From a virus, in the IMG/VR virus record IMGVR_UViG_3300032245_001048, positions 1-62,598 of that record: a DNA stretch of 62,598 nt; one strand, written 5' to 3'. The translations under genes and the position numbers were made by a program. Under the pieces are notes generated by a model. It saw only the letters and a list, made by a program, of their open reading frames with translations. It searched no databases and was not told where the DNA came from. Shown here in pieces: positions 61,521 to 62,598 of the stretch (within the stretch, counting starts at the first letter, position 1; each line of letters opens with the position of its first letter).

Positions 61521-61694
61521 TTACCAATCGCCATTATCGAACCATAAACGAATTGTAACAGGCAACAATTCAATCACCAAAGCATCTTGTTCCCATGCCT
61601 CATTGGTTTTATTATATGCAAAATTAATTCTCCAATGAAATGGATTTAATTTCAAAGTAATGTTACATCCGGAATACATTAGCCAATCTATCAT
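61521..61694 (-). CDS. small conserved phage protein, 57 aa
   Basis: Starts MIDWLMYSGCNITLKLNPFHW and ends WFDNGDW, a common small phage family that I recognise by its start (MIDWL.YSG..I..KLNPF). ATGA overlap with the upstream stop. Function unknown. Confidence 0.7.
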   Translation of the reverse strand: MIDWLMYSGCNITLKLNPFHWRINFAYNKTNEAWEQDALVIELLPVTIRLWFDNGDW

Positions 61695-61903
61695 TTTAAA
61701 CCTTTCAGATAATATTCTGTAATTTTGGTTTTTAACATATAAGGAATATCTTCATAAGGCCATTCCAATTTAAATGGACAACCTTCAGAACCCCAACTCA
61801 AATTGTGTAAAAATCCTCTAGCTCTTTTTAAATCCTCTATGCTAGATGGATCAAATTGGTGCCTTTGATAGTTACTGAAATTTTCAATCTTATTGCTACT
61901 CAT
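61691..61903 (-). CDS. small conserved phage protein, 70 aa
   Basis: Contains RARGFLHNLSWGSEGCPFKL and EDIPYMLKTKITEYYL, a pattern typical of small phage proteins of unknown function. ATGA-type junctions to both neighbours. Confidence 0.7.
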   Translation of the reverse strand: MSSNKIENFSNYQRHQFDPSSIEDLKRARGFLHNLSWGSEGCPFKLEWPYEDIPYMLKTKITEYYLKGLK

Positions 61904-62142
61904 TTCACATACTCCAAATTATCTTTTCTCATGTAGTGTATTTCTTGTGTTTCACTACTAGGTATACTTTTAACCACAGGAATAAAAGTAATACCTTCAA
62001 TCTCATTGCTTGCCCAATTTGAGTAGGTATAATAGATATCTTGATTCGTTTTTGAACGAACCTTTTTGAGAACGGCTTTACCGCCAGTTGTAGTGGCAAT
62101 ATAACCAGGTCGAGAGGGTTTAGTTTTGTTCCAGTTTTTCAT
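61900..62142 (-). CDS. basic hypothetical protein, probably leaderless, 80 aa
   Basis: Starts MKNWNKTKPSRPGYIATTTG. No ribosome site precedes the ATG: TATAAT of the promoter ends six bases upstream, so the mRNA would begin at or next to the A of the ATG. No family recognised. Confidence 0.65.
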   Translation of the reverse strand: MKNWNKTKPSRPGYIATTTGGKAVLKKVRSKTNQDIYYTYSNWASNEIEGITFIPVVKSIPSSETQEIHYMRKDNLEYVK

Positions 62143-62148
62143 AATATA

Positions 62149-62177
62149 ATTATAACATAAAAGAAGGGGGCTGTCAA
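62149..62177 (-). promoter_or_regulatory. consensus sigma70 promoter inside a terminator
   Basis: TTGACA, 17-bp spacer, TATAAT. The TTGACA box lies in the loop and 3' arm of the terminator hairpin at 62166-62185. Confidence 0.85.
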
Positions 62178-62185
62178 GAGCCCCC
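62166..62185 (-). terminator. GC-rich terminator overlapping promoter
   Basis: Seven-base stem GGGGGCT / AGCCCCC with a six-base loop, followed by TTCTTTT on the minus strand. It would end transcripts from the Hsp20-like gene. Confidence 0.8.
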
Positions 62186-62189
62186 TATA

Positions 62190-62255
62190 TTACCTACCGT
62201 TTGGGTAGTTCAATTGTTCCCATTCCTCATCGGATACAGGCCACCAATTACTCAT
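62190..62255 (-). CDS. very small protein candidate, 21 aa
   Basis: Starts MSNWWPVSDEEWEQL inside the end of the Hsp20 gene (8-base overlap), with GAAAG before the ATG. The Trp-rich, acidic sequence looks protein-like but the length makes it uncertain. Confidence 0.4.
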   Translation of the reverse strand: MSNWWPVSDEEWEQLNYPNGR

Positions 62256-62598
62256 CTTTCGATTTTACGGTAATTTTCTTTACCGCATCTTGAACCTTTA
62301 CCATGTTTTCTAACCAAACTTTAAGCATACCATTTGCAATTTCAGCATCTTTAATTTCTACCTTATCGGCAAGAGTAAAAGCACGATTGAAATTACGATT
62401 AGCAATACCTTTGTAGATATAGTTATCTTTATCATCGGAACTATCAACTACAGCACCTTTGATTACCAACTTATTACCTTCTAAGGTAACTTCAATATCA
62501 GTTTTAGCAAAACCAGCAACTGCCATTTCAATGACATACTTGTTTTCTTTTACTTGTTTGATATTGTATGGAGGATAACCAGGTGATGCTTTAGATAC
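62248..62598 (-). CDS. Hsp20/IbpA-like small heat-shock protein (N-terminus beyond window)
   Basis: The reading frame runs to the window edge; 116 residues are visible. YPPYNIKQ and VIEMAVAGFAKTDIEVT, IANRNFNRAFTLAD and NGMLKVWL are characteristic of class A Hsp20 (IbpA). It holds unfolded proteins for refolding. Hsp20 is a common gene of aquatic T4-like phages. Confidence 0.9.
   Translation of the reverse strand, partial: VSKASPGYPPYNIKQVKENKYVIEMAVAGFAKTDIEVTLEGNKLVIKGAVVDSSDDKDNYIYKGIANRNFNRAFTLADKVEIKDAEIANGMLKVWLENMVKVQDAVKKITVKSKDE

Follow-up and report, generated by a model that had tools for sequence, protein, structure and literature searches.

The window analysed here, i.e. the whole stretch of DNA under study, is a virus record of 62,598 bases and represents a T4-like phage known from environmental DNA. 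Replication and recombination genes of the T4 type are present, including a DNA polymerase that shares about 50% identity with cyanophage gp43 and a UvsX with up to 65% identity to the UvsX of other phages. The nearest relatives of the proteins of the window are found in phages of Synechococcus, Stenotrophomonas, Caulobacter, Pelagibacter and others. The genes around the element described below are coded on the minus strand: a gene for an Hsp20-type small heat-shock protein, a short ORF of 80 aa and a further one of 70 aa, the last two probably on one transcript. The features are collected in the table.

Features of the locus in the window (minus strand is the coding strand).
Feature	Position	Strand	Evidence
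Hsp20-type small heat-shock protein, upstream gene (5' end beyond the window)	62248..62598	-	PF00011 2.9e-17; phrog_432 5.6e-34
Terminator-like stem-loop AGGGGGCT-CTTGAC-AGCCCCCT, then T-rich TCTTTTATG	62165..62186	-	folding; compensatory changes in relatives
-35 box TTGACA, in the hairpin loop	62172..62177	-	sequence; TTGAC kept in relatives
-10 box TATAAT, 17 bp past the -35 box	62149..62154	-	sequence; homologues
Predicted +1, the A of ATG	62142	-	spacing (7th base after the -10 box)
80-aa ORF, predicted leaderless gene	61900..62142	-	dN/dS; homologues; beta-rich model
70-aa ORF, next downstream	61691..61903	-	overlaps the end of the 80-aa ORF; SD -5.9 kcal/mol

An earlier note on this DNA, made from the letters alone, had described a strong hairpin at 62166-62185 with TTGACA in its loop and arm and TATAAT 17 bp further on, and an ATG six bases after the -10 box. 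All of this is borne out, the stem running from 62186 to 62165. It pairs AGGGGGCT with AGCCCCCT over 8 bp, six of them G-C, around the loop CTTGAC, and TTGACA takes up five bases of the loop and extends one base into the 3' arm. The promoter is a 12/12 match (TTGACA, 17 bp, TATAAT), with TG preceding TATAAT, and six bases (TATATT) lie between TATAAT and the ATG at 62142-62140. After the stem, TCTTTTATG holds six T in nine bases, in a run interrupted by C and A (TCTTTT). The hairpin alone folds with -15.5 kcal/mol, a value equalled by none of 200 shuffles.

Perfect promoters of the form TTGACA-N15-19-TATAAT occur six times in the window as against 0.20 in shuffles, and promoters matching at 11 or more of the 12 positions number 16, compared with a mean of 3.77 in 300 first-order Markov windows. 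One of these has a hairpin over its -35 box (stem of at least 7 pairs, at least 5 of them G-C), a combination that did not appear in any of the 300 simulated windows. One has an ATG six bases past the -10 box (henceforth +6), which was found 29 times when the 300 Markov windows were summed. An ATG at +6 is by itself not rare; what is rare is the combination, plus its conservation. Seventeen related records contain 68 strong promoter sites, all on a single strand within each record, and five sites of the reversed pattern.

The 80-aa ORF is under purifying selection, with a dN/dS of 0.12-0.26 in comparisons with eight relatives. Its family has no PHROG and no Pfam match, nothing similar was found among annotated phages (E 0.01; E 1 with a relative as query), and a fold search with the protein returned nothing at E 0.001 or better. 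The predicted structure is beta-rich and of modest confidence (pLDDT 75, pTM 0.52). As the earlier note had also stated, there is no ribosome site: the region before the ATG at 62142 gives an anti-SD duplex energy of +1.5 kcal/mol. A later start, i.e. use of an internal start codon, is unlikely because no in-frame ATG occurs before residue 71. Among the other strong promoters of the window that stand before genes, seven (60396, 58577, 56135, 47744, 16705, 15742 and 11959) are followed by an ATG at a distance of 25-98 nt whose SD has an energy between -5.6 and -9.1; for the one at 758 these values are 34 nt and -3.2. By a crude test, an SD of -4 kcal/mol or better precedes 41 of the 74 long minus-strand ORFs of the window, so that the absence of an SD is, on its own, weak evidence. 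The first 20 codons of the 80-aa ORF show few synonymous changes (about 10, versus 26-46 in the later quarters; counts summed across the eight comparisons, 62142-61900), hinting at a constraint at the RNA or DNA level behind the predicted leaderless start.

Homologues were retrieved with the protein only, disregarding the promoter. They came to 123 loci, of which 118 could be used (two had no HMM match and three, L390-L392, no assigned start) and these reduce to 46 distinct upstream contexts. In 44 of them the ATG lies 6-10 nt past the -10 box; 43 were recognized by script, with a promoter of 9/12 or better, and one, L031, by inspection, with the element at +6. The gaps in the 43 scripted contexts are 6 (29 contexts), 7 (1), 9 (11) and 10 (2). 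L390, outside the count, has on reading the element at +7, and L048, with its N-terminus beyond the contig, was omitted from one comparison of relatives. No SD is present in 45 of the 46 contexts, the exception being L421, with a GGAG.

The remaining two contexts (L356 and L423) have a GIY-YIG-type gene between the promoter and the 80-aa ORF. L356 is on one contig with L007, in which the promoter and the six bases after it have not changed and an inserted ORF of 205 aa starts at the identical ATG position; L423 is on one contig with L216, where an inserted ORF of 197 aa starts at +9. The two inserted proteins share 55% identity over 190 aa, that of L007 matching Pfam MUG113 and T5orf172 and that of L216 being assigned to GIY-YIG by similarity, and the stop codon of each insert overlaps an ATG of the displaced ORF as ATGA. 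The newcomer genes have thereby taken over the predicted leaderless position. The promoter reading is supported in that both boxes and the distance between them are conserved although the letters around them vary. The start site that the earlier note placed on the ATG itself is a predicted one, and the leaderless start it implies is favored by the conserved ATG distance in 44 of 46 contexts and by two insertions at the same spot.

Short distances between promoter and ATG were also seen elsewhere in related records. At L068:18118 and L081:15864, the nine bases after TTGAAA-N17-TATAAT end in ATT and lead to the ATG of an ORF of 358-360 aa, at +9 and with no SD, making it a near-leaderless candidate of the same clade. 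Other short gaps of this kind are probably located inside genes. TTGACA-N17-TATGAT followed directly by ATGAT is kept in seven stretches of related records (L055:3835, L064:3682, L065:6031, L068:15777, L071:991, L074:2795 and L078:12025), probably within a coding sequence.

The hairpin was compared over a set of 46 contexts, fetched partly by the cassette pattern. At least six uninterrupted pairs can form in 42 of them, with 24 different stem-loops; three further contexts have a bulged stem and in L045 the hairpin lies upstream with the -35 box outside it, the promoter and the ATG distance being kept. Seven of the eight counted stem positions show more than one pair type (e.g. T-A and C-G, G-C and A-T), with G-T wobbles, and TTGAC stays constant while the stem letters vary in pairs. 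The nine bases after the stem include at least five T in 37 of the 42 contexts and fewer than five in the other five. Judged from these substitutions, selection acts on the hairpin as a hairpin. The view that it ends upstream transcripts thus gains support from the compensatory changes in the stem and from the T-rich DNA after most copies, termination itself being a prediction.

The copies with the ATG at +9 have a characteristic sequence of their own. Over 42 distinct copies with this gap the last bases read ATT-ATG (A at base 7 in 41, T at base 8 in 41 and T at base 9 in 40), and the copies with gaps of 7 and 10 have A at position 8 (2/2 each). Given that +1 is predicted at the 7th base after the -10 box, the +9 copies would carry the leader AUU-AUG, so that a 3-nt leader (AUU), instead of none, is very probable for some relatives. 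In viral contigs, the element with an ATG was found in 78 stretches at +6 and 85 at +9, and in only four at +12. The 80-aa family accounts for 40 of the 41 ORFs of at least 35 aa behind the +9 copies.

The composite design is not peculiar to the 80-aa gene, and in this respect the earlier description is refined. Behind 56 distinct +6 copies (bacterial-genome loci included) we found five families with several members, namely the 80-aa family (14), a cytidylyltransferase-like family (10; Pfam PF01467 for one member) and three others with 5, 3 and 3, plus singles. In viral contigs GGGNNTTGACWNNCCC-N12-TATAAT has at least 120 matches; among the matches listed, 86 of 97 distinct contexts have a stem of at least six pairs (GGG..CCC) and 71 of the 97 also have a T-rich tail. 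A control pattern in which the 5' arm was changed to CCC (CCC..CCC) gave 45 stretches, 31 of them distinct, and none with a stem of six pairs or more. The genes downstream of the elements are mutually unrelated and include those of high-light-inducible proteins (phrog_178), tRNA-Arg and others, with clamp-loader-like and glutaredoxin-like proteins assigned by eye. On the upstream side, a same-strand ORF precedes 116 of 124 elements, the largest groups being a MazG-like gene in 25 cases (one member matches phrog_671) and Hsp20 in 23 (assigned by similarity to that of the window).

The 5' end of tRNA-Arg(TCT) lies 8-9 nt past the -10 box in all five loci examined (L151:4112, L312:2231, L328:2199, L307:1099 and L330:1752), and the element is there predicted to give a nearly leader-free tRNA precursor. 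Elsewhere in the window (59747-59668) a terminator-like hairpin, a gap of 30 nt and a perfect promoter reading into tRNA-Glu and tRNA-Tyr form a separated version of the terminator and promoter arrangement. A genome-wide role for the element was considered and rejected: a search of 25 records bearing related elements or controls gave a single copy in 22, two copies in one, three in another and none in the last. Bacterial genomes, 257 Gb in all, yielded the +6 form five times, always in Clostridia MAGs and with no T tails. The pattern was absent from seven of the eight named isolates searched, the only positive being S-PM2, where it stands before hli03.

We consider it highly probable that the element is a conserved sigma70 promoter embedded in a terminator and that it makes a leaderless or nearly leaderless mRNA, as predicted from the sequence. 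One stretch of about 45 bp would serve both as a terminator in RNA and as a promoter in DNA. At the RNA level, the GC-rich hairpin and the T-rich tract would end the transcripts of the Hsp20 unit, most likely in the T tract. At the DNA level, the hairpin loop would act as the -35 box of a consensus sigma70 promoter, with the 3' arm and the T tract as its spacer, and the host RNA polymerase would start 7 bp past TATAAT, on the A of the ATG. The resulting leaderless mRNA would cover the 80-aa ORF and the genes that follow. RNA reading through from upstream would be a poor template for the 80-aa ORF because its ATG lacks an SD and is preceded by a stable hairpin, and the protein would thus be made mainly from its own promoter. 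From these sequence features we infer where exactly +1 lies, that transcripts terminate in vivo, that initiation occurs at the leaderless end and what role the overlap has.

The two units may also differ in timing. In relatives (L065:17654, L069:9848 and L058:9638) the Hsp20 gene has an early-type promoter with TATAAATA in its spacer, e.g. TTGACA-AACTAGTATAAATACTAG-TATACT, and TATAAATA includes TATAAAT, the T4 late motif according to PMC3037559 and PMC9004378. TATAAATA is enriched before genes (14 of 231 starts, the highest among its anagrams). Putative early and late promoters of Hsp20 overlap in these relatives, and given the late motif the element may mark the border between a unit still active late and one with early-type initiation.

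It is unlikely that the 80-aa gene is not leaderless after all, with transcription starting further upstream, or with the ORF being read from Hsp20 read-through and the hairpin stabilizing 3' ends. The three additional bases that some relatives very probably have before the AUG would fit such a reading, but the ATG mostly lies at +6 or +9 and hardly ever at +12, and an SD is lacking in 45 of the 46 contexts, the GGAG of L421 preceding the predicted +1. Another use of the hairpin sequence would be as a palindromic operator that binds a repressor or activator of the promoter, without any terminator. Operators commonly have the layout of an inverted repeat spanning a -35 box. Conserved letters would then be expected, whereas the arm letters vary with pairing retained, G-T wobbles occur and T-rich DNA follows, and we regard an operator as very improbable.

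The overlap may, with a probability not far below even, have no function of its own, an independent terminator and an independent promoter having simply been squeezed together by genome compactness. The start would still be leaderless, and this possibility concerns the role of the overlap only and is compatible with the main explanation. It agrees with L045, which combines an upstream hairpin and a separate promoter with the same ATG distance, and with the 30 nt between terminator and promoter at 59747-59668. Against it, 42 of 46 contexts, with 24 different stem-loops, have the -35 box in the loop, and the same holds before unrelated genes, so that the exact overlap has been kept or refound repeatedly. 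Rather doubtfully, we would propose a terminate-and-restart device, in which the polymerase that releases the upstream RNA at the T tract would already be positioned on the promoter with the hairpin loop as its -35 box and would re-initiate in place, with sigma kept or rebound.

Some parts of this conserved terminator-embedded promoter have counterparts in known systems. In the filamentous phages M13/f1 the terminator of gene VIII overlaps the promoter of gene III, so that there too a phage intergenic stretch is terminator and promoter; the M13/f1 case is not known to be leaderless or to recur before unrelated genes. In lambda, the sigma70 promoter PRM has its +1 at the start codon of cI. PMC9031893 describes leaderless mRNAs, that of lambda cI among them, as having the AUG at or near the 5' end and no SD, and the likeness extends to an AUG at or near the 5' end and a promoter whose +1 falls on the start codon (both predicted here) and to the lack of an SD. 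However, cI is the repressor of a temperate phage, whereas here a T4-like phage and unrelated genes are concerned, the promoter is built into a terminator and many copies have an exact 3-nt AUU leader, as predicted. In single-molecule work, the polymerase is on DNA after most termination events and restarts at nearby promoters, according to PMC6978380 and PMC6978322; our element, too, would have termination followed by initiation a short distance away, but in that work terminator and promoter are separate and here the terminator loop itself holds the -35 box. Cyanophage S-PM2 has the same composite before hli03 (AJ630128, 124304), GGGGGTTGACTAATCCCCC-TTTTTCC-TA-TATAAT; it differs in that the gene start is further down (leadered) and the host is a cyanobacterium. 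In the open-access literature searched, we found no phage promoter whose -35 box is a terminator loop and no leaderless gene of a T4-like phage, an absence that speaks only weakly for novelty.

Promoters, intrinsic terminators and leaderless mRNAs were each already known separately. A covarying hairpin with the -35 box as its loop, recurring before unrelated phage genes and with predicted leaders of 0 or 3 nt, provides a clean natural case in which one short sequence would set termination, initiation and the start of translation, a ready test for post-termination restart of polymerase, and a test of leaderless protein synthesis in phages whose promoter-proximal genes mostly use Shine-Dalgarno starts. 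For annotation, the motif may be used to locate small early genes that lack an SD. If the restart device were real, polymerases would be handed from one unit to the next with the 5' end of the RNA reset to AUG or AUU-AUG, flow through the upstream gene would feed the leaderless gene, and aquatic T4-like phages would have kept or reinvented this device before many unrelated genes.
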